Source of the DNA: Acidobacteria bacterium 13_1_40CM_65_14 | GTDB lineage: Bacteria; Acidobacteriota; Vicinamibacteria; Vicinamibacterales; CAVVIG01 | Assembly (NCBI GenBank): GCA_001917905.1 | Contig: MNEX01000088.1 | Span: 1 to 41,955, forward strand | DNA: 41,955 bases | Direction: 5' to 3' | In this document: positions 15,489-39,473 of the stretch, piece after piece | Position numbering within the stretch: position 1 is the first letter of the stretch | How the letters are laid out: every line of letters starts with the position of its first letter | Notes under the pieces: model-generated | Database searches by the model: none | The model's input: only the letters and a program-made list of their open reading frames with translations | What the model was told of the DNA's origin: nothing | Made by a program: the position numbers and the translations under genes

Positions 15489-16105
15489 ATCGTCGGCTAG
15501 CAGCTGCCATCCTCATGTGCGTGTCGCTGACGGCGACCGCGTGGGCCCAGCCACCAACTGACCGCACGCCGAACGACCGCGCGCCCGAGACGGGCAGCGA
15601 GGCGATCGCCGTCGATCCGCGCGGCGCCGCCTATCTGATCGGACCCGAGGACATTCTCGACGTCCTGGTGTGGAAGAACGCGGATCTCAGTCGAACGGTT
15701 CCGGTCCGTCCTGACGGCAAGGTGTCGCTGCCGCTCGTCAACGACATTCAGGCCGCCGGCCTGACGCCGACCCAACTGCGCGAGCAGCTCACCAAGCGGC
15801 TCTCGGAGTACGTGGAATCGCCGGAGGTCTCGGTGATCATCCGCGAGGTGCACAGCGTCAAGGTGGCGGTGGTCGGCGCCGTCAAGGTGCCGGGCCGCTA
15901 CGAGGTCAAGAGCCCGGCGACCGTGCTCGAGCTGATCGCTCAGGCGCAGGGGCTCACCGAGTTCGCGTCGCGCGATCACATCCTCGTCATCCGCCAGAAC
16001 GGAGGTACGACGACGCGCGTGCCGTTCAATTACCGGAAGGCCGCCGAGGGATCGGAGAAAGACAACTTCTTCGTCCGCGCCGGCGACATCATCTTCGTGC
16101 CCTGA
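15485..16105 (+). CDS. Wza-type polysaccharide export protein (Poly_export + SLBB)
   Basis: A 206-residue periplasmic/outer-membrane OPX protein. The signal peptide ends AWAQ at about residue 22. The Poly_export domain occupies about 48-120 (YLIGPEDILDVLVWKNADLS, VRPDGKVSLPLVNDIQAAGLT), then one SLBB domain about 125-180 (VAVVGAVKVPGRYEVKSPAT). There is no lipobox. The length is that of the short OPX proteins of exosortase-type loci rather than of full Wza, so it probably needs the upstream beta-barrel to cross the outer membrane. The ATG overlaps the barrel stop by 4 bases, implying coupled translation. Confidence 0.92.
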   Translation: MNRRLAAAILMCVSLTATAWAQPPTDRTPNDRAPETGSEAIAVDPRGAAYLIGPEDILDVLVWKNADLSRTVPVRPDGKVSLPLVNDIQAAGLTPTQLREQLTKRLSEYVESPEVSVIIREVHSVKVAVVGAVKVPGRYEVKSPATVLELIAQAQGLTEFASRDHILVIRQNGGTTTRVPFNYRKAAEGSEKDNFFVRAGDIIFVP

Positions 16106-16115
16106 GAGGTCATCG

Positions 16116-17735
16116 ATGCCCCGCGATCCGCTGTCACCCGCCGCCGACGAATCGGTCATCCTGCGTGCCTGGGAGATCCTCCGGCGCCGCCGGTTGCTCG
16201 CCTTCGTCGTCTTCATGACGCTCGTCGCGTCGGCTCTCGCATTCGCGACGTACCTCCCCGACCTCTATCAGGCGACGGCCGTCGTGCTCGTGGAGCGGCA
16301 GGTCTCCGAGGCGGTGGTGAAGCCGCCGGCCAGCGGCGAGCTCGAAAGCCGGCTGCAGGTCATCAAGCAGGAGATTCTGAGCCGGGCCCGGCTGTCGGCG
16401 CTCGTCGAGCAGTACAACCTCTATCCGCGACTGCGCAGCCGCGCGCCGCTGGAGACGGTGCTCGATCAGACCCGCCGCGATATCCAAGTCGAGTTGACCG
16501 GCCCCGAGCAGGTCAGCGGCCGGACGAAAACGGTGGCCTTCAGGCTGATCTACACGGGCGAGCAGCGCGACACGGTCGCGGATGTCACCAATGCGCTCGC
16601 CGCCTTTTACGTCGCCCAGAACGACCGCATGCGATCGGAAGAGGCGCTGCGGACCGCGGAATTCCTGAAAGGGCAGCTGAGCGAGGCGAAACGCCAGGTG
16701 GATCATCACGAGCAAAACGTGCGGGCGTTCACCGGACGGCACGTCGGCGAATTGCCGCAGCAGACCGGCATGAACCTCGCGACGCTCAGCCGCCTCAACG
16801 ATCAGCTCCGGTTGAACGGGGAGCAGCAGTTGCACGTCCTCGAGCAACGCGAGCGGCTGCTCGAGGGGATCGCGGTCGACTCGGACGCGCTGAATATCGC
16901 CGCCGCCGCGCCGGCGGTCTCGAACACGAGCGATCCCGTGGAGCTGGCCAAACGCATCGACCGGATGAAGGACGAGCTGCAGCAGCTCGAGACCCGATCC
17001 ACCGCCAAACATCCCGACGTCATCCGGCTGAAGGAACAGATTGCCGCGCTCCAGCGGGAGGCCGCGGCGCGCGAAGACGCGGATCGAAAGGCTGCGGAGT
17101 CGAGCGAGAAGACGCCGGCGCCGTCGCGCGATCTGCCGCCGGCCCGGCGGCGCGCGCTCGAGAACCTGGACGGGGAGCTCAGTCGACTGAAGAAAACCGA
17201 GGCGGACGTCCGCAACGCGATCACCGCGTTCGAGCGCCGTCTGGAGGGCGCGCCCGAGCTGCAGAACGAGTTTACCTTGCTCTCACGCGATCAGCAGGCC
17301 GCCAAAGATCTCTACGACTCCCTGATGAAGCGCTACGACGAGGCGCAGCTCGTCGCGAGCATGGAGACCGATCGCCAGGGCGAGCGGTTTCGCATTCTCG
17401 AGTCCGCGGTTCCTCCGGACGGCCCGAAGGCCCCGAACCGCCTACGGCTGCTGATCCTTGGACTCCTGCTCGCCGCCGCGGCGGCGGTCGGCGCCGTGCT
17501 CCTTGCCGAGCAGCTCGATCCGTCGTTTCATACGCTCGATGAATTGCGCAAGTTCACGAGGATTCCTGTGATCGCGGCGATTCCCTGTATCGACGCGGCG
17601 CCTGGCGCGCGGCGCGCGCGGGTCGCCTTCGCGATGGCCTCCGCGCTGGTCGTGATCGTACTCGCCGGCGCGTTGTCGGCGCACGTCGCTCGCGACAATC
17701 AGCAACTGGTCCGCTTCCTGGTTCGAACGAGTTGA
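16116..17735 (+). CDS. Wzz/GumC-type polysaccharide copolymerase (chain-length determinant)
   Basis: A 539-residue inner-membrane protein. Helix 1 lies near residues 28-47 (LLAFVVFMTLVASALAFATY) and the Wzz domain follows. A long periplasmic coiled-coil region with many Gln/Glu/Arg heptads runs from about 180 to 400 and includes STAKHPDVIRLKEQI. Helix 2 is near 443-465 (LLILGLLLAAAAAVGAVLL). A further hydrophobic helix lies near 507-525 at the extreme C-terminus, so the C-terminus may return to the periplasm, which is unusual. It has no fused kinase; the separate BY-kinase follows 6 bases later. The pair sets polymer length with the Wzy protein. A GAGAGG ribosome site precedes the ATG. Confidence 0.92.
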   Translation: MPRDPLSPAADESVILRAWEILRRRRLLAFVVFMTLVASALAFATYLPDLYQATAVVLVERQVSEAVVKPPASGELESRLQVIKQEILSRARLSALVEQYNLYPRLRSRAPLETVLDQTRRDIQVELTGPEQVSGRTKTVAFRLIYTGEQRDTVADVTNALAAFYVAQNDRMRSEEALRTAEFLKGQLSEAKRQVDHHEQNVRAFTGRHVGELPQQTGMNLATLSRLNDQLRLNGEQQLHVLEQRERLLEGIAVDSDALNIAAAAPAVSNTSDPVELAKRIDRMKDELQQLETRSTAKHPDVIRLKEQIAALQREAAAREDADRKAAESSEKTPAPSRDLPPARRRALENLDGELSRLKKTEADVRNAITAFERRLEGAPELQNEFTLLSRDQQAAKDLYDSLMKRYDEAQLVASMETDRQGERFRILESAVPPDGPKAPNRLRLLILGLLLAAAAAVGAVLLAEQLDPSFHTLDELRKFTRIPVIAAIPCIDAAPGARRARVAFAMASALVVIVLAGALSAHVARDNQQLVRFLVRTS

Positions 17736-17741
17736 TCGCCC

Positions 17742-18449
17742 ATGAGACAACATCTTGATCCCTCCCTGGTGAGCCTGAAGGCGCCGGCCTCGTTCGCCGC
17801 CGAACAGTACCAGGGCCTGCGCATCACGATCGAACAGTTGAAGCGTCTGCGGGACGTTCGTTTGATCGCCGTCACCAGCCCGAGCGCGGGGGACGGGAAA
17901 ACCGTCACCGCCCTCAACCTCGCGGGGGTGCTCGCGTGCGGGTCGGACGCTCGCGTCCTGCTCATCGACGCCGATCTGCGGCGTCCCACGGTTGCCGCGC
18001 GCCTGGGAATCGGCGCCGCGGATCCGCGCGGCCTCGTCGACGCCATCGCCGACACGAACGTGTGGCTCGACCAGGTCACGCGCCAGGTGGACGGCTTCAA
18101 CCTGTCGGTCATTCCGGCCGGTGTGACGCGCGTCCCGATCCACGAGATTCTTCGGTCGCCGCGACTCGAGCGCCTCCTTCAGGAGGCGCGGCAGCGCTAC
18201 GACTTCATCGTGCTCGATACACCTCCGCTGCTACCGGTGTTCGACGCGGCCACGATCTCCAAGCTCGTGGACGGACTCATCGTCGTCGTGGCGGCGAATC
18301 AAACGCCGCGCAAGCTGCTTGCGGAAGCCCTGACTCTTCTCGATCCGGCGACGGTGCTGGGCCTCGTGTTCAATCGAGACGTCCAGCCGTTGTTCGGGTA
18401 CTACAACTCGTCGTACCGCGGGTACTTTGGTGAGGCGCGGACTGCCTGA
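17742..18449 (+). CDS. BY-type tyrosine kinase, cytoplasmic
   Basis: A 235-residue P-loop ATPase of the CpsD/Wzc-C family. Walker A is AGDGKT (Gly50-Thr54), Walker A' is VLLIDADLRRPTVAARLG and Walker B is FIVLDTPPLLPVFDA. The C-terminus is a tyrosine cluster (GYYNSSYRGYFGEA) that is expected to be autophosphorylated. It is encoded apart from its membrane activator, the Wzz-type protein directly upstream, as in Gram-positive and exosortase-type loci. It controls polymerisation and export cycles by cycling phosphorylation. Confidence 0.92.
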   Translation: MRQHLDPSLVSLKAPASFAAEQYQGLRITIEQLKRLRDVRLIAVTSPSAGDGKTVTALNLAGVLACGSDARVLLIDADLRRPTVAARLGIGAADPRGLVDAIADTNVWLDQVTRQVDGFNLSVIPAGVTRVPIHEILRSPRLERLLQEARQRYDFIVLDTPPLLPVFDAATISKLVDGLIVVVAANQTPRKLLAEALTLLDPATVLGLVFNRDVQPLFGYYNSSYRGYFGEARTA

Positions 18450-18479: not shown

Positions 18480-19763
18480 GTGAACCCTGAGTCGCGTACT
18501 CGCCATCCTGTTCTCCTGCCGGCGCTGGTCATCATCGCGGCATCCACGCTGTTGGCAGGCTGCTACGTCGGCATTCCTCCCGTTGATCTCGGAGCCTTGT
18601 CCGCCGTGTTCGTGCTGGCGGCGGCAGTCCCGCCGATGCGATCCCTGTGTGTCGTGATGCGCCAGCGGCGCCAGCGGAACCAGCGCACGGTCATCCTCGG
18701 ATCCGGTCCGATGGCGGCCAAGCTCCTCGAGGAAATCGAGGCCCTCGACCGCTGTTACCACCGCGTCATCGGCGTCATCGACGATGAACCGCTGCCGACA
18801 TCATGGGCGGCCCAGGCCAGGTGGCTCGGTCCCGCCAATCGGCTCGCCGAGATTGTCGAACGCGAGCGACCGGGGCGCATCGTGGTCGCGTTTGCCGATC
18901 GTCGTGATCGGCTACCGCTCCAACGCCTGCTCGAGCTCCGGGTCCGCGGCATGATCGTCGAGGACGCGCTGGAGTTCCACGAGCGCGTGACCGGCAAGAT
19001 CGCCATCGAGGCGCTCAACCCGAGCGCGCTGATCCTCTCCTCGAAAGGGTTTCGAAACGATGGCGCGTCCGAGCTGGCGGCGCGGATCGTGAGTCTCGTC
19101 GTGTCGGCGATCGGACTGGTGCTCTCGGCGCCACTGCTGGCGGTGATCGCCGTCGCGATCAAGCTCAGCTCCCGCGGTCCCGTGCTGTTCGTGCAGAACC
19201 GCGCGGGGCGAGACGGCCGTCCGTTCGGCTTGCTGAAGTTCCGAACGATGCACCCGAGCGAGGAGCGACAGTCGGAGTGGGTGCGGGACAACGCCCACCG
19301 GATTACCGGCGTCGGCGCCTGGCTGCGACGGTTCCGGCTGGACGAGCTCCCGCAGCTCGTGAACGTCCTCAAGGGCGACATGAACCTCGTCGGACCGCGG
19401 CCGCATCCCACCTGCAACCACCAGATCTTCACCGAGCGGATCGCGTACTACCCGATCCGCTCGATCGTGCGCCCCGGCGTCACCGGCTGGGCGCAGGTTC
19501 GCTACGGCTATGCGAACGACCTCGCGGAAGAAACCGAAAAGATGCGGTACGACCTCTACTACATCAAGAACCGATCGCTGTGGCTGGATGCGCGGATCCT
19601 GTTGCACACGATCGTCGTGATGTTGAGCGGCGACGGAGCCGCCAGAGTGCGGCGGCAGCCGCGCGATCCCGGTGTCGCATGGGCTCCCGAGCGCACCGAC
19701 GGGACGCCGTACCCCTCATGGCTCGTCAGGCCGGGCGCCGCGCCTTCGGCCGGGCGGGATTGA
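18480..19763 (+). CDS. Undecaprenyl-phosphate sugar phosphotransferase (initiating enzyme)
   Basis: A 427-residue polyprenyl-phosphate hexose-1-phosphate transferase of the WcaJ/PssY type, which starts each repeat unit on undecaprenyl phosphate at the inner membrane. Only two N-terminal helices are present (about 12-30 and 37-56) rather than four or five. A Rossmann-like domain follows (VILGSGPMAAKLLEEIEAL). The catalytic domain begins with the re-entrant helix near 205-228 and holds LKFRTM, RLDELPQLVNVLKGDMNLVG with PRP, and RPGVTGWAQVRYGY. Start is GTG at 18480 with GAGG upstream; no ATG would keep the N-terminal helices. The next gene starts 5 bases after the stop. Confidence 0.92.
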   Translation: MNPESRTRHPVLLPALVIIAASTLLAGCYVGIPPVDLGALSAVFVLAAAVPPMRSLCVVMRQRRQRNQRTVILGSGPMAAKLLEEIEALDRCYHRVIGVIDDEPLPTSWAAQARWLGPANRLAEIVERERPGRIVVAFADRRDRLPLQRLLELRVRGMIVEDALEFHERVTGKIAIEALNPSALILSSKGFRNDGASELAARIVSLVVSAIGLVLSAPLLAVIAVAIKLSSRGPVLFVQNRAGRDGRPFGLLKFRTMHPSEERQSEWVRDNAHRITGVGAWLRRFRLDELPQLVNVLKGDMNLVGPRPHPTCNHQIFTERIAYYPIRSIVRPGVTGWAQVRYGYANDLAEETEKMRYDLYYIKNRSLWLDARILLHTIVVMLSGDGAARVRRQPRDPGVAWAPERTDGTPYPSWLVRPGAAPSAGRD

Positions 19764-25766: not shown

Positions 25767-26852
25767 ATGAGCGCGCGATGGCGATGGCGCGTGAGGTCGA
25801 CGCTCGCCTCGGCGATCGCCAGCGCGCATCGTCACCGGCTCGGCGCGCGGCTCGCCCGGCCGGTCGCTCAGCCGCTCATTGTCGGCTACCACCGCGTCGT
25901 CGAGGACTTCGCGGCCGCGGCGCGAACCGACCTTCCGAGCATGCTCATCGGCCGCGCCATGTTCGAGCGGCACGTCGATCTGATCGGACGTCACTTCAAG
26001 TTCGTCAGCCTCGACGACATCGGCGAGCGCATCGCGAGTGGATCGCCGTTCACCGAACGGGTCGCGGCCATCACCTTCGACGATGGCTACCGCGATGTGT
26101 ACGAGCACGCGTATCCGCTGCTCAAACGCAAAGGCATCCCGGCCGCCGTGTTCGTCGTCACCGATCTCGTCGGGCGCTCGAGCTGGCAGCCTCACGACAG
26201 ACTGTACCGCCTCATGGCGAAGGCGTTTGCCGTGTGGGATCGACCGCAACGTCGGTTGCTTGCGCTGTTGGGCGACCTCGGCCTTCCCGCGGCTCAACGA
26301 CTGGACGCCGGCGCGACCACCGACAGCCCGTTGAGGATGGTTTCGACGCTGATGCCGGAGCTCTCTCGAGCCAATGTCGGCGTGGTCGTCGCCGGCCTCG
26401 AGGCGGCGGTCGGCAACGGATTCGGCCCCGCGCCGCGCACGCTGACGTGGCCCATGCTGCTCGAAATGCGCCGCGCCGGCTTCGTCGTCGGATCGCATAC
26501 CGAGGCGCACGCGTCGTTGCCCACGGAGTCAGCGGACACGGTCGCCGACGATCTCGAAAGTTCGAAGCGCACATTGGAGCGCCACCTCGGCGAACCGATC
26601 GCGCATTTTGCGTATCCCGGCGGTCAGTTCACCGACGCCGTCGTCGAGGCGGTCGGCCGCGCCGGCTATCGATTCGGTTACACCGCCTGTCCACACGGCA
26701 ACGCGCGCCATCCACATCTGGCGATCGAACGGCTGCTGCTGTGGGAGGGATCGTCGGTCGATGCCGACGGCCGTTTTTCGGAGGACATCTTGCGCTGTCA
26801 GGTCCACGGTCTCTGGCCGCCCATCCGCAAGTGCCGGGTGCGTCACGTATGA
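25767..26852 (+). CDS. Polysaccharide deacetylase (NodB/CE4 family)
   Basis: A 361-residue CE4 enzyme. Motif 1 is TFDDGYRD with Asp105 and Asp106, where the second Asp is a metal ligand. Motif 2 is GSHTEAH with His244 and His248 as the other metal ligands. Motif 3 is FAYPGGQFTDAVVEAV. About 110 residues are inserted between motifs 1 and 2, more than in NodB and similar to exosortase-locus deacetylases. There is no clear signal peptide, only an Arg-rich start, so it may act on lipid-linked units in the cytoplasm before flipping. The ATG follows the previous stop by 1 base. The stop overlaps the flippase ATG by 4 bases. Confidence 0.9.
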   Translation: MSARWRWRVRSTLASAIASAHRHRLGARLARPVAQPLIVGYHRVVEDFAAAARTDLPSMLIGRAMFERHVDLIGRHFKFVSLDDIGERIASGSPFTERVAAITFDDGYRDVYEHAYPLLKRKGIPAAVFVVTDLVGRSSWQPHDRLYRLMAKAFAVWDRPQRRLLALLGDLGLPAAQRLDAGATTDSPLRMVSTLMPELSRANVGVVVAGLEAAVGNGFGPAPRTLTWPMLLEMRRAGFVVGSHTEAHASLPTESADTVADDLESSKRTLERHLGEPIAHFAYPGGQFTDAVVEAVGRAGYRFGYTACPHGNARHPHLAIERLLLWEGSSVDADGRFSEDILRCQVHGLWPPIRKCRVRHV

Positions 26853-28339
26853 AGCAACGGCTCCTCGACGCGCTCCGCGGTCCGGCGATGGTACTCATCG
26901 CCGGACGTGCCGTCGGATTCGCCGCGCTGTTCATGATCCCGGTGGTCCTGGCCCGCGTCTTCAATCGGGCGGAGTTCGGCACGTACAAGCAGTTGTTCCT
27001 GGTGTTCTCCACGCTCTACGGGATCGCGCAACTCGGGATGGCCGAGAGCTTGTACTACTTCGTGCCGCGCAGAGCCGGGGCGGGCCGCCACGTGTGCAAC
27101 GCGGTCGTGACGCTGGCGTGCGCAGGACTCGGTTGCCTGACCCTGCTCTACGCGGCGCGGACGGCAATCGCCGCCTGGCTGACCAACTCGCAGCTCGCCG
27201 ATCATCTCGTCCTGCTGGGGCTGCTGCTGGCGCTGACACTGGTCGCCACCGTGTTCGAGATCGTCATGATCTCGCGCGGCCAGCATGTCAAGGCTGCCGT
27301 CACGTACGCCGGCTCCGACTTCGCTCGGGCGCTGCTCTTCATCATTCCAGCGCTGGGATTCGGCGGCGTCGGCGCCGTGCTCATCGGCGCCGTGGCATTC
27401 GGCATCCTCCGCGTGGCGGCGATGCTCGCCTATCTGTGGCAGGAATTCGACGGCGGCCTGCGGATCGACGTCGGCCTCTGGCGGCGTCAACTGGCGTACG
27501 CGCTGCCCTTCGCACTGGCCGTCGGCGTCGAGGTCGTGCAGACGAATTTTCACCAGTACGTCGTGGCCGCGCGATTCGACGCGGCCACGTTCGCGATTTA
27601 CGCCGTGGGATGCCTGCAGATTCCGCTCGTCGATCTCGTGATGACTTCGACCGTCAACGTCATGATGGTCCAGATGACCGCGCACGCGCGGGAAGGCGAT
27701 CGGCGCGCGGCCGTGTCGCTTTGGCACAGCACGATCTCGAGGCTGGCGATCGTCATGTTTCCGCTCGCCGCCTTCCTGCTGGTCGCGGCGCGCCCAGTCA
27801 TCGTCGCGCTCTTCACGACGAAGTATCTCGCCAGCGTGCCGATCTTCATGGTGTGGACGCTGACGATCCTGCCGTCGGCGTTCGCGGTCGACGGGGTGCT
27901 GCGCGTCTACGCCCAAACACGTTTCCTCCTCGTGATGAACGTCTTGCGTTTCGCGCTCGTCGTCGTCTTGATTTGGCCGTTTCTCTCGATCTTCGGCATG
28001 AGCGGCGCGGTGCTCGTGACCTTGCTGGCGACGAGTGTGGCGAAAGGCGTCGGCGCCGTGCGAATCGCGCGACTCCTCGGCGCGGGGCTGCACGATGCGC
28101 TGCCGTGGCGGCGACTGGCGGGCATCGTCGCCAGCGCTGTCATCGCGGCGGTGCCGGCGTTTTGGATCATCCACACAGTCACGCTGCCGGCGCTCGCCGT
28201 GCTGGCGTGCGCCGGCTTCGCCTATGCGGGCGCCTACGCGGCTCTCCTGTTTGGATCCACGACCGCGGCGCGGCAGATCGTCCCCTCGTCATTTGCGATG
28301 AGGCGCCGGCTGGCGGCGTGGATGACCCCGCAAGGTTGA
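26849..28339 (+). CDS. Wzx-type polysaccharide flippase (MOP superfamily)
   Basis: A 496-residue membrane protein with about 14 helices and the N-terminal pattern of polysaccharide-synthesis proteins (LIAGRAVGFAALFMIPVVLA, RVFNRAEFGTYKQ). It should move undecaprenyl-linked repeat units across the inner membrane. A conserved family stretch is FALAVGVEVVQTNFHQYVVA. The ATG overlaps the deacetylase stop by 4 bases. The stop codon lies inside a short GTTGA repeat that runs up to the ribosome site of the next gene. Confidence 0.9.
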   Translation: MKQRLLDALRGPAMVLIAGRAVGFAALFMIPVVLARVFNRAEFGTYKQLFLVFSTLYGIAQLGMAESLYYFVPRRAGAGRHVCNAVVTLACAGLGCLTLLYAARTAIAAWLTNSQLADHLVLLGLLLALTLVATVFEIVMISRGQHVKAAVTYAGSDFARALLFIIPALGFGGVGAVLIGAVAFGILRVAAMLAYLWQEFDGGLRIDVGLWRRQLAYALPFALAVGVEVVQTNFHQYVVAARFDAATFAIYAVGCLQIPLVDLVMTSTVNVMMVQMTAHAREGDRRAAVSLWHSTISRLAIVMFPLAAFLLVAARPVIVALFTTKYLASVPIFMVWTLTILPSAFAVDGVLRVYAQTRFLLVMNVLRFALVVVLIWPFLSIFGMSGAVLVTLLATSVAKGVGAVRIARLLGAGLHDALPWRRLAGIVASAVIAAVPAFWIIHTVTLPALAVLACAGFAYAGAYAALLFGSTTAARQIVPSSFAMRRRLAAWMTPQG

Positions 28340-28373: not shown

Positions 28374-30290
28374 GTGTGCGGCATCGCCGGCATCGTCCGG
28401 TGGGATCGGGCCACGGTCTTCGAGCATGAAATCCGGTCGATGTGTGGCGCGATGGTGCATCGCGGACCCGACGAGGAAGGCGTCTACCTGGGCGACGGCG
28501 TCGCCCTCGGCATGCGCCGGCTGAGCATTATCGATCTCGACAACGGCCAGCAGCCGATCTGCAACGAAGACGCCTCCGTCTGGATTGTGTTCAACGGCGA
28601 GATCTACAACTACCGGGAGCTGCGCGCTCAGCTCGAACGGAACGGGCACACATTCCGAACGGCGAGCGACACCGAGACCATCGTGCACTTGTACGAGGAT
28701 GTCGGCGCGCGTGTCGTCGATTACCTTCGCGGCATGTTCGCGTTCGCGATCTGGGACACGCGCACACGACGGCTCCTGCTCGCGCGCGACCGGCTCGGCA
28801 TCAAGCCGTTGTTTTTCAGCGAGCGTGACGACGAGCTGGTGTTCGCCTCCGAGCTCAAGCCGATTCTGCAGTTGTCCACCGTCGAGCGCTCCGTGAGCTG
28901 GGAGGCTGCCAGCCACCTCTTCACGTTCCTGGCGACACCATCCTCGCAAAGCATCGTTGACGGCATCCGAAAGCTCGAACCCGGTCGGATCGCCACCGCC
29001 GTCGGCAATTGTGGACTGCGCATCGAGCGGTATTGGGACGTCGACTTCGTGCCCGACGAGGCGACCACGGAGGACGCGATCGTCGAACGCCTGCGCGAGC
29101 TGCTCGTCGAATCGGTCACGCTGCACCGGATCAGCGACGTCCCGATTGGCGCGTTTCTGAGCGGCGGCATCGACTCGAGCGCTGTCGTCGCCACGATGGC
29201 GCGGGTGGCCCCCGATCCCGTGAAGACGTTCTCGATTGGATTCGCAGAAGCCGGGTACGACGAGCTCGCTCATGCCCGGGAGGTAGCGGCGGCGTTCGGC
29301 ACCGACCACTACGACTTAGTCCTTCGTCCCGACGTCATCCAGATCGTCGAGGACCTCACGTGGTATCTGGACGAGCCGTTCGGCGACACGTCGGCCATTC
29401 CCACCTACATGGTGTCAAAGCTGGCCGCCGAACACGTCAAGGTCGTCCTGTCCGGCGACGGCGGCGACGAGCTCTTTGCCGGCTACGAGAAATACGTCGT
29501 CGAAAGCCGGGAACGACGCTTCGACAAGATACCGGCATGGCTTCGGCGAGCCGGCGGCGCCGTGGGCGACGCGATGCGGGACGGGATGCGGGGTCGACGA
29601 TTCCTGCAGCATCTCGCGCTCGATGGCCCTGCGCGCTATCTCGATGCCTCGACGATGTTCACCAGGGATCAGATGCGGCGGCTGTTTCACGACGATGCGT
29701 TCGACGAGATGTCTCGTCACGATCCGTGGCGCGCCTCGCTCGCCGCGTTCGCGCCGACCGGCGGCGGCGAGTGGCTGGCCGCCGTTCAGCACCACGACCT
29801 CCAGACCTATCTGCCGCTCGACATTCTCACCAAGGTCGATCGGATGACGATGGCGCACTCGATCGAAGCGCGACCCCCGCTGCTCGACCACAAACTGGTC
29901 GAGTTCGCCGCGACCATTCCGGCCCACATGCGCCTGCGCGGCGGCACGACCAAATATCTGCTGAAGCGGGCCATGCGCGGCATCCTGCCCGACGCGATCA
30001 TCGACCGGCCCAAGCATGGATTCGCGGTGCCCCTGGCACGCTGGTTCCGCGGGGACCTGTCGGAATTCGCGCGCGATCTCCTGTTGTCAGACACCTGCCG
30101 GCAACGAGGGTTCTTCAACACCAAGTACATCGAAACCCTGTTTCGACAGCACGACCGGGGGCGCGATCTCGATCTCCAGCTCTGGACGATCCTGTCGTTC
30201 GAGCTCTGGTGTCGGCGATTCCTCGATGCACCACGCGCAAGCGCGCGACGGTCCCATCCGGTGACCACTCTTATTGCAGAGACGGCCTGA
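28374..30290 (+). CDS. asnB: Asparagine synthase-type glutamine amidotransferase, first copy
   Basis: A 638-residue class II amidotransferase. Starting with GTG gives MCGIAG, so Cys2 is the glutaminase nucleophile after Met removal. The glutaminase half has RRLSIIDLDNGQQPI and NGEIYNYRELR. The synthetase half has the ATP pyrophosphate loop LSGGIDSSAVV near residue 260, LSGDGGDELFAGYEKYV, and ARPPLLDHKLVEFAA. AsnB proteins in exosortase/EPS loci are thought to amidate sugar carboxylates or amino-acid substituents rather than to make free asparagine. A strong GGGAGG site lies 7 bases before the start. Length and motifs are complete. Confidence 0.92.
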   Translation: MCGIAGIVRWDRATVFEHEIRSMCGAMVHRGPDEEGVYLGDGVALGMRRLSIIDLDNGQQPICNEDASVWIVFNGEIYNYRELRAQLERNGHTFRTASDTETIVHLYEDVGARVVDYLRGMFAFAIWDTRTRRLLLARDRLGIKPLFFSERDDELVFASELKPILQLSTVERSVSWEAASHLFTFLATPSSQSIVDGIRKLEPGRIATAVGNCGLRIERYWDVDFVPDEATTEDAIVERLRELLVESVTLHRISDVPIGAFLSGGIDSSAVVATMARVAPDPVKTFSIGFAEAGYDELAHAREVAAAFGTDHYDLVLRPDVIQIVEDLTWYLDEPFGDTSAIPTYMVSKLAAEHVKVVLSGDGGDELFAGYEKYVVESRERRFDKIPAWLRRAGGAVGDAMRDGMRGRRFLQHLALDGPARYLDASTMFTRDQMRRLFHDDAFDEMSRHDPWRASLAAFAPTGGGEWLAAVQHHDLQTYLPLDILTKVDRMTMAHSIEARPPLLDHKLVEFAATIPAHMRLRGGTTKYLLKRAMRGILPDAIIDRPKHGFAVPLARWFRGDLSEFARDLLLSDTCRQRGFFNTKYIETLFRQHDRGRDLDLQLWTILSFELWCRRFLDAPRASARRSHPVTTLIAETA

Positions 30291-30294
30291 AACT

Positions 30295-33201
30295 ATGCGT
30301 GTTCTCGCGTCACGCACGATCACGATCGCGGTCAGTGTGCTCGTCATGCTGACGACTGCCGCCGCGCCTGGCAAATGGACGCGCGGCACGGCCACCGCCA
30401 TGTCGAGCGCGACGAGAGCGGCCGAGCCTCCGCGGGCCTTCGTCGACACGACGTTTCCGACGCTTGGGCGGCACACGATTCACGTGCCCGCCGGTGGCGA
30501 CCTGCAACGGGCGCTCGACCAAGCGCGGGGCGGCGACCTGATCACGCTGGAGGCACGCGCCGTGTATCGCGGCCCGTTTCATTTGCCGGCGAAAGAAGGG
30601 ACCGGCTGGATCGTCGTCTCTGCGCCGCTGCCGGGCCTCCCGGCACAGGGACGCCGGATCGACCCGTCGTACGCGTCGGTCATGCCGAAGCTCGTCGCCT
30701 CGTCCGGCGCCGTGCTCGCCGCCGACCGCCGCGCCCATCATTATCGCTTCGTCGGTCTGGACATCGCCCCGGCAGACGGCGTCTTCCTCCACGCGCTCGT
30801 GCAACTCGGGCACGACGACGTCGGCGTGGAGACGCTGCCGCACCATCTCATCTTCGACCGCTGCTACCTGCACGGGGACGCGACGCGCGGCGGCCGTCGG
30901 GGCATCGCGATGAACTCGCGGCAGACGGCTGTCATCGACTCGTACCTGTCGGACTTCAAGGAACGCGGCGCCGACTCGCAAGCGATCGCCGGCTGGAACG
31001 GCGACGGCCCGTTCAAGATCGCCAACAGCTACCTCGAAGCTGCCGGCGAGAACATCATGTTCGGCGGCGCCGATCCCACCATTCGCGATCTCGTGCCCGC
31101 CGACATCGAGATCCGCCAGAATCACCTGGCGAAACCGATGTCGTGGAAGATCGGTCACGAGGCGTTCGCCGGCGCCGAATGGACCATCAAGAACCTGTTC
31201 GAGCTCAAGAACGCCCGGCGCGTGCTCGTTGACGGTAACCTGTTCGAGTACAACTGGCCGCAGGCCCAGAACGGCTTTGCCATCCTCTTCACGGTGCGCA
31301 ATCAGGATGGTCGCGCGCCCTGGTCGACCGTCCAGGACGTCGTCTTCGCGAACAACGTCGTCCGGCACGTCGCGGCGGGCGTCAACATGCTCGGCCGCGA
31401 CGACAACTACCCGAGCCAACGGCTCGAGCGTCTCGAAATCCGGAACAACCTGTTCCTCGACGTCGGTGGATCCTGGGGCAGCGGGCGGCTCTTCCAGCTC
31501 CTGGACGGCACGAGCGACGTGCTGATCGATCACAACACGGCGCTTCAAACCGGTGGGCTGCTATCTGGCGGCGATCATGCGCCGCACACCGGGTTCAGGT
31601 TCGAGAACAACATCACGCTTCACAATCGCCACGGCATCGCCGGCAGCGGCACCAGCGCCGGCCTTCCTGCGCTGGACCGCTACTTTCCCGCGTCGGTCGT
31701 GCGCCGCAACGTCATCGTCGGAGGCAGCGCGTCCGAGTATCCGCGCGACAACTTCTTCCCACCCGCGCTCGACGATGTCGGTTTCGCGTCGCATCGAGAC
31801 GGGCGCTTCCGTCTGACACGGCACAGTCCGTTTTCGCGCGCCGCGACCGACGGCCGCGATCCGGGCGCCGACATCGACGCGCCCGGTCCGGCCGCCAGCA
31901 GTCTCGCGCTGCTCGGCGCTCGAGACGACACGGCGCGAACGCCCGGGGCCGTGCTCCCCGCCGGAGGTGCCGCACCCGAGATCGGAGTGGTCCTCTTCTG
32001 GCTGGCATTTGCGCTCTTGGGTTACGTGTATCTGGGGTATCCGCTCGTCGCGGCGTTGACTGCGCTCGTTCAGTCCAAGCCGCACCATCGAGCGCCGATC
32101 GAGCCGACCGTGTCGGTGATTGTGCTCGCATACAACGAAGGCGAGCGTCTCGCGGCACGAATCGAAAACCTGCTCGCGCTCGACTACCCGCGGGATCGTC
32201 TCGAGATTGTCGTCGGCTCCGATGGATCGACCGACGATACGGTCGCATGCGCGCGCCAATACGCGCAGCGGGGCGTGAATGTGCGGCCGTTCCCGGTGCG
32301 CCGTGGTAAGCCGGCCGTGATCAACGAGCTGGTGCCGAGCGCGCGAGGGGAGATCGTCGTCTTCGCCGACGCCCGACAACGCTTCGATCGCGGCGCGGTG
32401 CGGGCGCTCGTGGCCAATTTCGCCGACCGGCGCGTGGGGGCCGTGAGCGGCGAGCTGATGCTGAGAGCGCACCACGACGCGGCCGCGGCTGGACACGGCA
32501 CCGCCTTCTACTGGCGGTACGAGAAGCTGATCCGATTGACGGAGAGCCGCGTCGATTCGACGGTGGGTGCAACCGGGGCGATCTACGCCATTCGCCGCGA
32601 GCTCTTCGAACCGGTTCCAGCCGACACGATTCTGGATGACGTGCTCATTCCGCTGAGAATCGTCCGCCGCGGGTATCGGGTGGTCTTCGAGCCCGAGGCG
32701 CGGGCCTACGATCACACGTCGACAACGGCGGGTCAGGAGCTGGCGCGACGGGCGCGAACCATCGCCGGGACGTTCCAACTGTTTGCACGCGAGCGGTGGC
32801 TCCACAATCCGCTGCGCAATCGTTTGTGGCTGCAAACGATTTCTCACAAGGGACTGCGGCTCATGCTGCCCGCGCTGCACGTGCTGTTCTTCGCAGCGAA
32901 CGTCGCGCTGGTCCAACTCGCGCCGTATTGCTGGATGCTGGCGGCGCAATCGGCGTTCTACGCCGCCGCGCTCGTGGGGTGTGGCCGACGCCCGGCGCAA
33001 CGGCATCTGAGAATCGTCAGCGTCCCCCACACGATTTGTCTTCTAAGCTGGGCCACCATCATCGGATTCGCGAGGATGGTGACCCAGACTCAGCCCGTGA
33101 CGTGGGAGCGCGCGTGCGGACTCGCGCCGGCGGCTCCGCTGAATCAGCCCCGCGGCTTCGCCTTGCCGATGGATGGCAACGACGGCGGCCGCGCGAACTG
33201 A
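30295..33201 (+). CDS. Fusion of secreted beta-helix domain and membrane family 2 glycosyltransferase
   Basis: A 968-residue protein. A signal-like helix (about 5-25) precedes a right-handed parallel beta-helix (about 60-530), seen from regular repeats such as VLVDGNLFEYNW, VVFANNVVRHVAAGVNML, LEIRNNLFLDVGG and VLIDHNTALQTGGLL, as in pectate lyases and AlgG-type epimerases. A membrane helix near 562-590 leads to a GT2 domain (about 602-810): VSVIVLAYNEGERLAARI, GSDGSTDDT, FADARQRF (DxD region), AIYAIRRELFEP, DDVLIPLRIVRRGYRV and QLFARERW. Further helices run to about 935. The predicted topology puts the beta-helix in the periplasm and the transferase in the cytoplasm. It overlaps the convergent gene by 58 bases. 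The beta-helix activity cannot be named from sequence. Confidence 0.88.
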   Translation: MRVLASRTITIAVSVLVMLTTAAAPGKWTRGTATAMSSATRAAEPPRAFVDTTFPTLGRHTIHVPAGGDLQRALDQARGGDLITLEARAVYRGPFHLPAKEGTGWIVVSAPLPGLPAQGRRIDPSYASVMPKLVASSGAVLAADRRAHHYRFVGLDIAPADGVFLHALVQLGHDDVGVETLPHHLIFDRCYLHGDATRGGRRGIAMNSRQTAVIDSYLSDFKERGADSQAIAGWNGDGPFKIANSYLEAAGENIMFGGADPTIRDLVPADIEIRQNHLAKPMSWKIGHEAFAGAEWTIKNLFELKNARRVLVDGNLFEYNWPQAQNGFAILFTVRNQDGRAPWSTVQDVVFANNVVRHVAAGVNMLGRDDNYPSQRLERLEIRNNLFLDVGGSWGSGRLFQLLDGTSDVLIDHNTALQTGGLLSGGDHAPHTGFRFENNITLHNRHGIAGSGTSAGLPALDRYFPASVVRRNVIVGGSASEYPRDNFFPPALDDVGFASHRDGRFRLTRHSPFSRAATDGRDPGADIDAPGPAASSLALLGARDDTARTPGAVLPAGGAAPEIGVVLFWLAFALLGYVYLGYPLVAALTALVQSKPHHRAPIEPTVSVIVLAYNEGERLAARIENLLALDYPRDRLEIVVGSDGSTDDTVACARQYAQRGVNVRPFPVRRGKPAVINELVPSARGEIVVFADARQRFDRGAVRALVANFADRRVGAVSGELMLRAHHDAAAAGHGTAFYWRYEKLIRLTESRVDSTVGATGAIYAIRRELFEPVPADTILDDVLIPLRIVRRGYRVVFEPEARAYDHTSTTAGQELARRARTIAGTFQLFARERWLHNPLRNRLWLQTISHKGLRLMLPALHVLFFAANVALVQLAPYCWMLAAQSAFYAAALVGCGRRPAQRHLRIVSVPHTICLLSWATIIGFARMVTQTQPVTWERACGLAPAAPLNQPRGFALPMDGNDGGRAN

Positions 33202-35219
33202 CTCGACACCGTCGATGCAGCCGAAGGCGCCAGGTTCGACGCCGCTCCGATAGCGATGTCGCCGACCCTGGCGTCCATGTCGAAGAAGATCGCGTGGACG
33301 CGCTGGCCGTCCGGCGCCTGGTTCGCGCTGGTATAGAAGACCGAACCGTTCTTCACATACTTCGCGGTTCCGTTCTCAATCAGGATTCCGAGCGTGTCTC
33401 CACCCTGAAAGGACGTTTCGCTCTTGTAAGATCCCGACTCGCGCACCTCGACGGTCCCGTTCTGCAGCCGCAGCGCAAAGCTCAAATCGCCCGCCTGAGT
33501 GCCGGTGCTGCCAAGGCTCAGACCAATGAAGCGCAAGCTATTCGCTTCTGTCGCGGTGAACTGCAGACGACCGGCTGACGCCGCCACCCGTTGTTGAGAC
33601 ACCGCGCTGGCATCCGGGCAGCCGCCGCATCCAGCGGTCTTCTGCAGGCTGTTACCTGAGGCCGTCATGTTGATGAGGCTCATCCACTGCGCACTTCCGG
33701 ATGCCGGAGGCGGCGTCGGAGTCGGCGTCGGTGCAGGTGGCGGAGTCGGTGCCGGCGCGGGAGCCGGCGCTGGCGCGGGAGCCGGAGTTGGAGTTGGACT
33801 TGGCGTGGGCGCCGGGCTTGGTGACGCGCCGAGCTTTTCGTACGGAATGCGCACGATATACGCGTCGAGCCGGCTCGTCCCCGAGTTCGCGGTCCAGATG
33901 TAGTACTCCCCGGTCACGTCGAGATTGCCCTTAGGATATTTCCAATAATCGTCGGTGCCGCCGCCCGCTGCGTTCAGATCCGTGATGTTCGGCGCCACGA
34001 TCACCGTCGTCAGCGATCCATCGAGCTTGAAGCACAGGATCTCGTTCGCTCGAGGCAGATTCTTCCGGCTGGCGTTGGCGCTGCAGGCGTATTGCTGATC
34101 GGCCGGCACGCCCGATCGCGCGTTCCCCCACGAGACGTGGCCGACGTCGGCGTCCCACGAGGAGGTCTGGTACACGAGCGTTCCCTGACCAGACGTCGAC
34201 GCCACCGGCTCGCCACCGGTCAAATCGAGATTGAAATTCCAGAGCCGCACGGCGCCTGGCTGCGGATTCATGTTGTCCGCCGCGAGCATGAAGCCGTACC
34301 CGTTGTCGGAATGGCCGCCCGCGCCGTTGCGATCCAGGAGATCGTGTTCGGCCCCCGTCTGGAGATCGATGATGCGATCGTCGACCTCCGACTTCGAATC
34401 GACACCCAGCTTTTCCTTGATCACCAGCCAGCGGCCGCTCTTGTCGACCTGGCATTCGTCGTAATTCAGGCCCTTCTGCGGATAGTAGAAGAACTGCCCC
34501 GTGTCCTCACGGTAGGCGAGACAGCCAAGGTCGGCATAGCTCGACTTGTCCTTCAACGTCGCCGAATGCACGCGGTCGTCACCGCTCGAGTGGAACTGCC
34601 AGATGTACCGGTTCCCACCGAACAGATCGGGGCGCGAGGCGACGTCGAAGACCGTGCTGAACGAGTGATTGAGGACGTCGTAGCGCTGGAGGCTCGACCC
34701 TCCAGGCGCGGTGAGATAGATCGTCGTCGGCTGCCGGTCGCTGAAGTACCAGCCTTCGCCGCTCGCCCAACTGTATGGACTGTCGGGCGAGAAGAGCGGA
34801 CCGAGGTTGCGCGTCTCGCCCGTTTGCTTGTTGTAGCTGAAGAGTGTCGGGCCAGAGCCGCCCTTCCGGCGTTCGAGCCCGAGGAACGCGAGCAGCGTGT
34901 CGCTGCCAGCATGGTTGTTGATGTTGTTCCAGTAGGAATACCCGACCGGCTGGACGCAGTCCGCGCCGCCGCAGTCGTTGCCGTTCGTCAAGCGAATGGC
35001 GGTGGTGCCGTACGGGGCGGGAAACGTGAATCGGCCACGCTCCGGCATGAATTTCTGGACTTCTCCGGCGGAAAGCGGAAGTCGCGAACCCGCCGACGTT
35101 GCCGACTCCAGGAATCCGCCTTGCGCAGAAGCGACGCCAACGCCCGTTCCGAGCGTCGCGAGAGTGATCAAAACGAATCGGATGTATGTGAAGACACGAT
35201 GACTGGGCTTCCAGATCAC
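33144..35219 (-). CDS. Secreted beta-propeller-like protein with Pro-rich linker and jelly-roll C-terminal domain
   Basis: A 691-residue exported protein. The signal peptide ends ASAQG at about residue 33. Residues about 40-475 contain WD/TolB-like blades (TLFSYNKQTGETRNLGPLF, STVFDVASRPDLFGGNRY, GRWLVIKEKL) plus Cys pairs. A Thr/Pro/Ala-only linker of about 40 residues follows (33700-33815). The last 150 residues form a concanavalin-like jelly roll (VEVRESGSYKSETSFQGGD, YVKNGSVFYTS). GTG 35219 has AAGGAGA 7 bases upstream. It is the only minus-strand gene in the polysaccharide region. It may bind or process the polymer outside the cell; the activity is unknown. Its 3' end overlaps the convergent beta-helix/GT2 gene. 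Confidence 0.78.
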   Translation of the reverse strand: MIWKPSHRVFTYIRFVLITLATLGTGVGVASAQGGFLESATSAGSRLPLSAGEVQKFMPERGRFTFPAPYGTTAIRLTNGNDCGGADCVQPVGYSYWNNINNHAGSDTLLAFLGLERRKGGSGPTLFSYNKQTGETRNLGPLFSPDSPYSWASGEGWYFSDRQPTTIYLTAPGGSSLQRYDVLNHSFSTVFDVASRPDLFGGNRYIWQFHSSGDDRVHSATLKDKSSYADLGCLAYREDTGQFFYYPQKGLNYDECQVDKSGRWLVIKEKLGVDSKSEVDDRIIDLQTGAEHDLLDRNGAGGHSDNGYGFMLAADNMNPQPGAVRLWNFNLDLTGGEPVASTSGQGTLVYQTSSWDADVGHVSWGNARSGVPADQQYACSANASRKNLPRANEILCFKLDGSLTTVIVAPNITDLNAAGGGTDDYWKYPKGNLDVTGEYYIWTANSGTSRLDAYIVRIPYEKLGASPSPAPTPSPTPTPAPAPAPAPAPAPTPPPAPTPTPTPPPASGSAQWMSLINMTASGNSLQKTAGCGGCPDASAVSQQRVAASAGRLQFTATEANSLRFIGLSLGSTGTQAGDLSFALRLQNGTVEVRESGSYKSETSFQGGDTLGILIENGTAKYVKNGSVFYTSANQAPDGQRVHAIFFDMDARVGDIAIGAASNLAPSAASTVSSQFARPPSLPSIGKAKPRG
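33700..33815 (-). repeat. Low-complexity (Thr/Ala-Pro)n linker coding repeat
   Basis: Tandem GGxGxxGGxGxx units on the + strand read on the minus strand as alternating Ala-Pro and Thr-Pro for about 38 residues. Such a tract can change length by slippage and forms an extended linker between the propeller and the jelly-roll domain. Confidence 0.8.
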
Positions 35220-35631: not shown

Positions 35632-36819
35632 GTGCCCGCCGCTGAACGCCGCCGTTTGCGAGTCGCGATCGTCGCTGCGTCGCTCCGGATTATCGGTGGA
35701 CAGGCCGTTCAGGTGCAGTGCCTGGTCGACGGGTGGGCCAGCAGCCGGGATGTCGACGCCTGGCTTGTTCCGATCAATCCCTTACCTCCCAAGCCGTTCC
35801 GCTGGCTGCTGGCCATCAAGTTCATCCGGACGCTCGTGACCGAGCTGAGCTATTTGCCGCTGCTCGTCCGGGCGCTCCGGCGCGCCGACGTCGTTCACGT
35901 GTTTTCCGCGTCGTACACCTCTTTCTTACTTGCCACGCTTCCCGCGGTGATGGTGGCGAAACTGATGAGTCGCCCTGTCATCGTGAACTATCACAGTGGC
36001 GAGGCGCCCGACCATTTGCGTCGATCCGCGATTGCCAGACTCGTGATGAAGAGATGGGTCGATGCGGTCGTCGTCCCGTCGACGTTTCTGCGCGGCGTCT
36101 TTGCCGCGTTCGGCATCAGCGCTCATGTCGTAGCGAACACGATCGATGTAACACGTTTCGCGTACCGTGTGCGCGATCCGCTGCGTCCCCGGCTGATCTC
36201 CACGCGCAACTTCGAGCCGCTCTACAACGTGTCGTGTACACTGCGCGCCTTCGCGCGCGTCCAGGCTCGCTGTCCCGAGGCGTCGCTGACGCTCGTCGGC
36301 GACGGATCGCAGCAGCGCGCACTGCGCGCGCTCGCCGACGATCTGCGGCTGCGGAACGTGACCTTCGTCGGTCGCGTGGATCCCTCCCAGATCCACCGCT
36401 ACTATGCCGACGCCGATCTCTACGTGCAAACGCCCGCGATCGACAACATGCCGCTCTCGGTGCTCGAAGCCTTTGCCAGCGGGCTGCCGGTGGTCGCCAC
36501 GCGCATCGGCGGTGTTCCGGCGATCCTGGCGGACGGCGTGCACGGCGTCCTCGTGCCTGCTGACGACCACGAGGCGTTGGCGGCGCAGGTGATGAAGCTG
36601 GTCGAAGAGCCCGCGTACGCGCGCCGGCTCGCAGCCGCTGCGCGCGAAAGCTGTGCGGCCTATGAATGGCCTGTCGTGGCCGCCCAATGGCTGGCCATCT
36701 ACCGATCGCTGGCGTCCTCCGTCACCGACGACGTGATGATCGCGTCCGCTGACGGACCCCGCCCGGCCGAGCAGGTCGCCGAGACGAGCGAGCCCTGGCG
36801 CCCTTCCGAATCTGCCTGA
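35632..36819 (+). CDS. GT4-family glycosyltransferase
   Basis: A GT-B-fold glycosyltransferase of about 395 residues. The N-terminal domain starts LRVAIVAASLRIIGGQAVQV (Gly-rich acceptor loop). The C-terminal nucleotide-sugar domain has STRNFEPLYNVSCTLRAF, LTLVGDGSQQRAL, and VLEAFASGLPVVATRIGGVP. The usual E-x7-E is D-x7-E here (Asp in AIDNMPLSVLEAF). The frame is open from GTG 35602, but that codon lies inside a -24/-12 promoter. GTG 35632 is listed, and TTG 35656 directly before RVAIVAA is possible. It is the first gene of a three-gene unit; its TGA overlaps the next ATG by 1 base. Confidence 0.87.
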   Translation: MPAAERRRLRVAIVAASLRIIGGQAVQVQCLVDGWASSRDVDAWLVPINPLPPKPFRWLLAIKFIRTLVTELSYLPLLVRALRRADVVHVFSASYTSFLLATLPAVMVAKLMSRPVIVNYHSGEAPDHLRRSAIARLVMKRWVDAVVVPSTFLRGVFAAFGISAHVVANTIDVTRFAYRVRDPLRPRLISTRNFEPLYNVSCTLRAFARVQARCPEASLTLVGDGSQQRALRALADDLRLRNVTFVGRVDPSQIHRYYADADLYVQTPAIDNMPLSVLEAFASGLPVVATRIGGVPAILADGVHGVLVPADDHEALAAQVMKLVEEPAYARRLAAAARESCAAYEWPVVAAQWLAIYRSLASSVTDDVMIASADGPRPAEQVAETSEPWRPSESA

Positions 36820-39473
36820 TGAAGCGCGTCCTGGATCGCCTGCGTTCGATGCCGCTCGACGAGCTGGCATGGCGCGCGCGCGTGTTCGCGCGCAGCGAGA
36901 CGCAGCGCGCCGTCGCGCGGATGCGATCGCCGCGGTGGGACCGCCGTCAGCTGCGCCGCGCGCTGGCGCACCGGGTGATCGATGCCGGGCTGCGCCGCGC
37001 GATCGGCGCCGGAGACTGGCTCACGGTTCACGACGCGCTGGCTGGCCATCTCGAGAGCCGGCCTTCGTCGTTCCTGCTGGACCCGTCTTCGGCCGATTCG
37101 CTGGTTGCCGAAGTGCGCGCCCGCTGGCCGGGCGCCGCATCCGATGCCGCCGCCCGCGCCGACCGCGTGCTGGCTGGCCGTTACGACATCCTCGGCTACC
37201 AGAACCTGGTCGTCGCGCCGCCCGGACGCGCGGTGGATTGGCATTACGATCCGGTCCACGATCGGCGGGCGCCGGCCGCGTTCTGGGCCGACGTCCCGTA
37301 CCTCGATCCCGCTCTCGGCGATCACAAAATCATCTGGGAGATCAACCGTCATCAGCACTGGCTCACGCTCGGGCGCGCGCTCTGGCTCACGGGCGACCCT
37401 CGCCATCGTGTCGCGATCGTCGAGCGCCTCGAGAGCTGGCTCGCGGCAAACCCGCCGCTCGTGGGCATCAACTGGGCGAGCATGCTGGAAATCGGGCTGC
37501 GCGCGCTGTCGTGGACCTGGGCGTTGCACTTCCTCCTGTCGACAAACGGCCGCGATCGATCATCGTCATCCGCTGCACCGGATCGTTCGCGCGAGATCCC
37601 ATGGCTCGTCGACCTGTTCATGGGGATTGACCGGCAACTCGCGCACGTCGAGCAGCATTTGTCGTACTACTTCAGTCCCAACACGCATCTGACCGGCGAA
37701 GCGCTCGCGCTGTACGCCGTCGGCCTCGCCATACCCGAGTTGGCGGCGAGCGATCGATGGGTCGAGCGTGGCCGCGGCATTCTGCTTCAGGAGATTGACC
37801 GTCAGATCCACGCCGACGGCGGACACGCCGAAGCGTCGATGCACTATCACCGATACACGCTCGACATGTACGTCCACGCGTTGCTGGCGGCGAGACGCGC
37901 ACAGGACACCGCCGCCATTCCGCGTTTCACGGATGCCGTGACGCGGTTGGCGGCGTTCGCGCGGGCCGCCGCTGACGACCGCGGAATGCTGCCGCTCATC
38001 GGCGACGATGACGGCGGCATGCTCTGGCCCTTCATGGGCCGCGCGTGTCGCGACGTCCGCGATTCGCTGGCGCTCGCCGCGATCGTGCTCGTTCGTCCCG
38101 ATCTGGCGCCCTGGGGCGTGCCGGAAGAAGCGTTCTGGGTTGGCGGTCGCCTGGCCGTCGAGCACGCAGGATTCATCGACGCGAACCGCGATCGGGCGGC
38201 GGCCGCACCGTCGCGAACCTTTCGTGACTCCGGTTATGTCGTGGCCCGGGATCCGAGCGGAGGCCACGCCATATTCGACGTGGGCGCTCACGGCTACCTG
38301 AACGCGGGCCACGCGCACGCGGACGCCTTGGCCATCACGCTCGGCATCGCCAACCGGCCATTCCTCGTCGACCCCGGCACATCGACCTATGTCATGGACC
38401 ACAGGCTGCGCGATCGGATGCGCGACAGCGCGAGTCACAACACGGTGATCGTCGATGAGCGCTCGCAATCGATTCCCGGGGATCCGTTCCGTTGGCAGAC
38501 GCGATCGGACGCGCGCCTGCACGCGTGGCGGCACAACCCGTCGTTCGACTGGGCCGAAGCGTCACATGACGGCTATGCACCGCTCCGGCACCGGCGCACG
38601 CTGCTTCGGACCTCGTCAGGGTGGCTCGTCGCTGACGAGATCCTCGGCGGCGGCGTGCACACGGCGAACGCGCATTGGCACTTCGATCCGGCCTGGGACG
38701 TGACCGCCGACGCGCATGGACGACTCCACGCGACCAGCGTCGATGGCGACAGCGTATGGCTGCTCTGCGATGCCGACGCCGTCCGCATCCAACGCGGCGA
38801 TGAACCGTCGGGTCTGGGATGGTACGCACCGGTCTACGGGACGCTCATCCCGACGTACTCCGCGCAAATGACGCGGCAGGCCGTCGCGCCGTTCGCGCTG
38901 GTCACGTGGATCGGCCTCGCCGAGAACGGGAGATCGCCATCGCTCGAACATCTCACCGCGACGCCGGCTGCGGCCGGGGATGCGATCGCCGCGCGCGTCA
39001 TCGCGGGCGAACGGGTGTCGGCGTTCCTGTTGCGGCCGGATGGACCGGCGTCTCGCAGCACGCCGCGCAGCGTGGAGGTCGTCGACTATCGCACTGACGC
39101 TCGCGTGCTGCATTGTGCGGCCAACGCAAAAGGCCTGCGCGCGCTCGATCTGATCGACGCCAGTTACGCGACGCATCGCGACGGCCGGCTCACCGTGACG
39201 GCCGATTCGCCGATTGCGGATCTGCACGTTGCGATCGAGGGCGCGGCACTGGATCTGCGGGCGTCCGAGCCGCCGCCGCAGCTTCGACTTCTGGGAGATG
39301 TCCTCGCAGCGGCGCGAACGATCCGCCTCAACGGCCGCGAGTGGCCGATGACGGCGGTCGAAACATCCGACACGGCGGTCGTGATTGAAGGTGGACTGTG
39401 GCCGACTGGTGTGCCTCTTGCTATCGGCAGAGTCGCGGATCGGCCAATGAGTGATTCGCAGGAGACGCTATGA
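36819..39473 (+). CDS. Heparinase II/III-family polysaccharide lyase
   Basis: An 884-residue protein. The N-terminal half is an alpha-toroid (DHKIIWEINRHQHWLTLGRA, NWASMLEIGLRALSW, SPNTHLTGEALALYAVGLA, GGHAEASMHYHRYTLDMY with the usual Tyr/His pair). The C-terminal half is the beta-sheet Hepar_II_III domain, with GHAHADALAITL (His498, His500) and LVDPGTSTYVMDHRLRDRMR followed by SHNTVIVDERSQ. These lyases cleave uronic-acid polymers by beta-elimination. It has no obvious signal peptide, which is odd for a lyase of an exported polymer and is also seen in exosortase-type loci. The ATG overlaps the GT4 stop, and its TGA overlaps the lipoprotein ATG. Confidence 0.9.
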   Translation: MKRVLDRLRSMPLDELAWRARVFARSETQRAVARMRSPRWDRRQLRRALAHRVIDAGLRRAIGAGDWLTVHDALAGHLESRPSSFLLDPSSADSLVAEVRARWPGAASDAAARADRVLAGRYDILGYQNLVVAPPGRAVDWHYDPVHDRRAPAAFWADVPYLDPALGDHKIIWEINRHQHWLTLGRALWLTGDPRHRVAIVERLESWLAANPPLVGINWASMLEIGLRALSWTWALHFLLSTNGRDRSSSSAAPDRSREIPWLVDLFMGIDRQLAHVEQHLSYYFSPNTHLTGEALALYAVGLAIPELAASDRWVERGRGILLQEIDRQIHADGGHAEASMHYHRYTLDMYVHALLAARRAQDTAAIPRFTDAVTRLAAFARAAADDRGMLPLIGDDDGGMLWPFMGRACRDVRDSLALAAIVLVRPDLAPWGVPEEAFWVGGRLAVEHAGFIDANRDRAAAAPSRTFRDSGYVVARDPSGGHAIFDVGAHGYLNAGHAHADALAITLGIANRPFLVDPGTSTYVMDHRLRDRMRDSASHNTVIVDERSQSIPGDPFRWQTRSDARLHAWRHNPSFDWAEASHDGYAPLRHRRTLLRTSSGWLVADEILGGGVHTANAHWHFDPAWDVTADAHGRLHATSVDGDSVWLLCDADAVRIQRGDEPSGLGWYAPVYGTLIPTYSAQMTRQAVAPFALVTWIGLAENGRSPSLEHLTATPAAAGDAIAARVIAGERVSAFLLRPDGPASRSTPRSVEVVDYRTDARVLHCAANAKGLRALDLIDASYATHRDGRLTVTADSPIADLHVAIEGAALDLRASEPPPQLRLLGDVLAAARTIRLNGREWPMTAVETSDTAVVIEGGLWPTGVPLAIGRVADRPMSDSQETL

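Follow-up and report, generated by a model that had tools for sequence, protein, structure and literature searches.

The window, the whole 41,955-nucleotide stretch of DNA analyzed here, carries a cluster of polysaccharide genes on its forward strand. The Wzx/Wzy-dependent set is complete in this cluster: genes for Wza, Wzz/Wzc, and a tyrosine-kinase-like ATPase of the export system (positions 15485 to 18449) are accompanied by an initiating sugar-phosphate transferase (Bac_transf; 18480 to 19763), a Wzy-type polymerase/ligase (PF04932; 19817 to 21133), and a Wzx flippase (Polysacc_synt_3; 26849 to 28339). An asparagine-synthase-like amidotransferase (28374 to 30290) ends 4 bases before the gene studied here (30295 to 33201, +), which joins a beta-helix to a glycosyltransferase of family GT2, and a heparinase II/III-like gene belongs to the same cluster (36819 to 39473). 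The export, chain-length, kinase, sugar transferase, ligase, and amidotransferase genes resemble XrtA/PEP-CTERM exopolysaccharide cluster models, six of which were matched, all below cut-off. In many related clusters a nucleotide-sugar dehydrogenase lies immediately upstream of the beta-helix gene, with heparinase II/III genes near, suggesting uronic acids. The nearest dehydrogenase in the window's genome, 75% identical to that of G027 (a relative discussed below), starts a different contig; this position agrees with how genes are ordered in relatives beyond the end of the window, and the contigs were kept separate. A TolB-like protein is encoded on the opposite strand (33144 to 35219, −), convergent with the fused gene, such that the two 3′ ends overlap by 58 bases. 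The C-terminal domain of this protein (about 120 amino acids) recurs behind free secreted beta-helices in G026 and G095 (L047 and L053; 40 to 51% identity, up to three copies) and is possibly a shared glycan-binding module.

Translation of the fused gene gives 968 uninterrupted codons followed by TGA, and full-length homologues are known. The encoded protein consists, in order, of a signal peptide, a beta-helix, a linker, transmembrane helix TM1, a GT2 domain, and TM2 to TM4. The beta-helix and GT2 halves are alike in codon-position composition (GC3 of 0.85 versus 0.80; GC2 of 0.48 versus 0.49), and therefore both are coding in this frame, which bears out the single-frame fusion reported in a preliminary description of this DNA. 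That description had also envisaged that homologues might always occur as two genes, with a frameshift or missed stop here; this origin of the frame was ruled out by seven other Acidobacteriota genomes in which the fused gene is intact, in one frame and with the same domain order. Other long frames nearby (853, 653, and 1278 codons) were considered as further fusions and rejected, as the gene model broke each of them up into genes that overlap but use different frames. The two halves may still be made or processed as separate chains, by internal initiation or by proteolysis: in the window copy, a GTG near the TM1 boundary is a possible internal start, although across the fused genes no recurrent internal start with a well-placed Shine-Dalgarno sequence was found. 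The full-length AlphaFold model of the fused protein, built from six sequences, was poor (mean pLDDT of 50.5) and was used only for coarse fold matching.

The interdomain linker (31901 to 31983, +) is unconserved. As a separate observation, part of the linker in the G121 fusion is encoded by a palindromic interspersed repeat, GTCCGGCTNNAGCCGGAC, giving the peptide VRLKPDTT, which also occurs in G129 (L040, L042). The same repeat is found in the window at positions 1913, 2980, and 10097, and its pattern occurs 76 times in the window's genome and 86 times in G121 (reversed control, 0).

Four transmembrane helices were assigned from hydropathy and charge counts: TM1 (residues 564 to 587; 31984 to 32055, +), predicted to run from outside to inside, and TM2 to TM4 (residues 856 to 929; 32860 to 33081, +). 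We counted lysine and arginine within 15 residues of the helices and summed over eight fused proteins. The flanks of TM1 held 38 such residues on the inner side versus 14 on the outer side. Ahead of TM2 there were 28, whereas the TM2-TM3 loop had none and the TM3-TM4 loop had 23. Hydropathy and the positive-inside counts agree, and the predicted topology, which puts the beta-helix outside and the GT2 domain inside as first proposed, is supported. Free GT2 proteins of this family start immediately before TM1, so that their N terminus is already predicted to lie outside and a secreted domain could be added with the topology unchanged.

To place the fusion, we searched 193 genomes of the class to which the window's genome belongs, 198 relatives, and 396 genomes of the phylum; these sets overlap, and all are assemblies, many of them metagenome-assembled genomes (MAGs). 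The one-frame fused homologues (G121, G047, G129, G019, G025, G191, and G026; 56 to 63% identity) span several families, and three of the seven genomes (L035 to L037) are Acidobacteria MAGs, two of them labeled groundwater. G151 also has the fusion; there the first part of the beta-helix is in another frame and about 43 codons are missing (L048, around 11204 to 11207), suggesting that its beta-helix part is broken or misassembled. All occurrences observed outside the class had the beta-helix and the GT2 domain encoded by two genes, most of them next to exopolysaccharide genes of like kinds. The two genes are neighbors in G353 and G449; in G346 tens of kilobases separate them, and in G510, G386, G310, and G332 they lie on different contigs. 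Within the class, the free GT2 gene of G150 comes after two genes for the beta-helix; a tandem beta-helix pair beside a GT2 gene was seen in both G150 and G449 (L050, L086).

One genome, G027, carries the beta-helix and GT2 parts as separate, adjacent genes with a 4-base overlap: the TTG start of the GT2 gene overlaps the TGA of the beta-helix gene (TTGA) and is preceded by a GGGAGG Shine-Dalgarno sequence. G027 falls within the fused clade in the tree of each half, and a fused core without G027 was rejected in both the GT2 and the beta-helix tree (AU test, P of about 1 × 10−4), indicating that G027 is a secondary split. A re-split nested in the fused clade in turn means that the fusion is old and no artifact. 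A single origin that includes G191 was not rejected in the GT2 tree (P = 0.51) but was rejected in the beta-helix tree (P = 0.0014), a conflict that points to either a second fusion or an exchange of the beta-helix. The groups in all of these tests were chosen after the trees had been seen, so that the P values serve as a guide only.

The first half of the protein begins with a signal peptide (hydrophobic core at residues 3 to 21; 30295 to 30357, +), recognized by hydropathy, followed by a predicted periplasmic, right-handed parallel beta-helix (residues 41 to 535; 30415 to 31900, +). The window's own copy has no Pfam match in this half; PF13229 (Beta_helix) was matched by 21 of the 35 family members (best E of 1.9 × 10−12). 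Together with the AlphaFold model of the domain (five sequences; pTM of 0.75, mean pLDDT of 67) and its fold matches, this agrees with the signal-led beta-helix of the preliminary description. The nearest solved structures are right-handed beta-helix enzymes: PL6 alginate lyases and chondroitinase B made up 14 of the 17 best fold matches, with TM-scores to PL6 of only about 0.2 to 0.55 for what is a moderate model. In profile searches, similarity to known lyases was confined to the N-terminal cap. PF14592 (Chondroitinas_B) matched none of the 35 relatives at E ≤ 0.1, and we do not claim PL6 membership, as this Pfam model is unmatched. A PF14592 search for PL6 enzymes in the phylum also gave no match, as did control genomes, so that absence was not shown. 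The comparison with the AlgG active site suggested earlier gave a negative result, as none of the 35 relatives carries the DPHD motif. WcaM, which belongs to the colanic acid cluster, was considered as a relative and rejected (hhalign probability of 0.5%). A free secreted paralogue, 48% identical, lies on another contig of the window's genome (G000:C28:2598-4037; L055). The family is frequent in Acidobacteriota, and no function is described for it in the libraries searched.

Conservation in this family bears on what the domain does. The 35 relatives share 29 invariant columns, including E, K, R, Q, W, and N positions, and the invariant columns with charged residues are common to fused and free forms. 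The most conserved stretch, FELKNARRV...TVRNQDG (31198 to 31311, +), is a candidate active-site region. The PL6-like fold, the invariant charged columns, the uronic-acid gene context, and the precedent of RbmB (see below) lead us to infer that the domain cleaves, trims, or otherwise edits the glycan of its own pathway, most likely as a PL6-like lyase. Alternatively, the beta-helix could be non-catalytic and, in a role like that of AcsB, bind the glycan or act as a scaffold, thereby guiding the glycan or anchoring the complex. No recognized catalytic motif was found in it, and a GT2 synthase that is fused to its periplasmic partner and later cleaved is known from AcsA-AcsB (PMC4877109). However, the invariant columns better fit an enzyme, as does the occurrence of the same domain secreted alone or joined to other extracellular domains, and we regard a purely scaffolding role as unlikely.

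The second half contains a GT2 catalytic domain (residues 604 to 835; 32104 to 32799, +), predicted to be cytoplasmic. It matched PF00535 at 71 bits (cut-off of 23.3; E of about 1 × 10−19), and the nearest solved relative both by sequence (4.5 × 10−20) and by fold is PcManGT (PDB 6YV7). The features of GT2 (GT-A) membership are present, including the first aspartate motif, SDGSTD (32218 to 32235, +), and the acidic pair LDD within TILDDV at the TED/ED position (32626 to 32643, +). The catalytic motifs noted in the preliminary description therefore stand as far as GT2 membership is concerned, but the processive-synthase set is incomplete. Alignment to E. coli PgaC placed ADARQ at the DxD position (32365 to 32379, +), with the second Asp replaced by Arg; this site reads DxR, as ADARQ or an equivalent, among the homologues examined, and TED is LDD. 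At the Q(Q/R)xRW position, aligned to KQRLRW of PgaC, the window has ARRARTIAGTFQ (32743 to 32778, +), without the Q and the W, and this site is R(K/R)xRT in all 20 homologues examined, fused or free. As a side observation, G125 encodes two related domains of the same GT2 family in one predicted frame (L058:7885-10299), possibly a further fusion.

These motifs bear on whether the protein is a true synthase, in which a GT2 with divergent motifs would polymerize and translocate a chain that the beta-helix edits on exit. The GT2 domain in the fusion is a membrane protein with TM helices on both sides, BcsA is among its fold matches, and there is weak similarity to the PgaC, NodC, and BcsA models and to E. 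coli PgaC itself. However, alanine mutation of any residue of the Q(Q/R)xRW motif inactivates NodC (PMC4132801), the protein has only 1 + 3 TM helices, and the cluster holds a full Wzx/Wzy set. Scores against curated models were also far below cut-off (PgaC_IcaA, 64 of 422 bits; CelA, 31 of 699; NodC, 36 of 550). A polymer-making processive synthase is not supported by these motifs, and we consider a true synthase improbable. The earlier suggestion of a new type of processive synthase is thus not upheld, and its corollary, that the polymer is edited as it emerges from this GT2, is unlikely given the non-processive motifs, the kinship with PcManGT, and the Wzx/Wzy cluster. With the sub-cut-off scores, the same evidence makes a repeat-unit transferase the economical reading of the predicted activity. 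Similarly improbable is a neutral fusion, in which a stop was lost between neighboring genes with no functional coupling and proteolysis or internal initiation may part the halves: the two genes are adjacent in related clusters, G027 returned to separate genes, and the linker is unconserved and in places built of genome-wide repeats, but the fusion has been kept across several families and may have arisen a second time in G191.

Taken together, these data favor a bifunctional membrane protein of a Wzx/Wzy-type pathway, probably for a uronic-acid-containing exopolysaccharide, with the GT2 responsible for adding one sugar and the beta-helix for editing the glycan; we assign this reading a probability of about 0.55. 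The cytoplasmic GT2 would extend the lipid-linked repeat unit by a single sugar, Wzx would flip and Wzy polymerize the glycan, and the periplasmic beta-helix, most likely a PL6-like lyase, would then cleave, trim, or edit it. Editing after flipping or polymerization is plausible, and the fusion would keep the periplasmic enzyme tethered to the complex that carries out synthesis. Conservation of this link between a cytoplasmic transferase and an extracytoplasmic domain suggests that both work on one polymer. A more specific form of this proposal, a trans-membrane make-and-edit chain that couples a repeat-unit glycosyltransferase to a periplasmic lyase or epimerase of a new polymer-specific lyase family, with fusion at least twice, is more tentative and seems to us doubtful as a whole. 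The fusion connects a beta-helix family that has yet to be classified to a specific pathway and so offers a concrete substrate for testing. A covalent link between a synthesis step of an exopolysaccharide on one face of the membrane and an editing step on the other would be rare.

Among open-licence papers we found no report of a beta-helix/GT2 fusion, and each half has its own closest counterparts. PcManGT, a mannosyltransferase of Pyrobaculum calidifontis, is a membrane-bound GT2 like the transferase half and has three TM helices (PMC10569066); it differs in being archaeal and in having no extracytoplasmic domain. The PL6 lyases (alginate lyases and chondroitinase B) share the right-handed beta-helix with the first half; however, identity is 10 to 13%, PF14592 is unmatched here, and PL6 enzymes are not fused to a transferase. 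AlgG is a periplasmic beta-helix epimerase that acts on a nascent uronic-acid polymer; in contrast to the domain described here, it is a separate protein that carries the DPHD motif, and the 50 best fold matches of our model did not include it. RbmB of Vibrio cholerae, which is among the fold matches, is a beta-helix lyase that has a signal peptide; its gene lies with the exopolysaccharide genes on whose product the enzyme acts, and the authors who described it drew a comparison with PL6 (PMC11637428). RbmB differs in being a separate, matrix-acting protein, and no sequence match between it and the beta-helix half was found. The AcsAB cellulose synthase of Gluconacetobacter hansenii likewise combines a GT2 synthase (AcsA) and its partner (AcsB) in one polypeptide that is later cleaved (PMC4877109), but AcsAB is processive and proteolytically processed, its GT2 comes first, and its partner is not a beta-helix.
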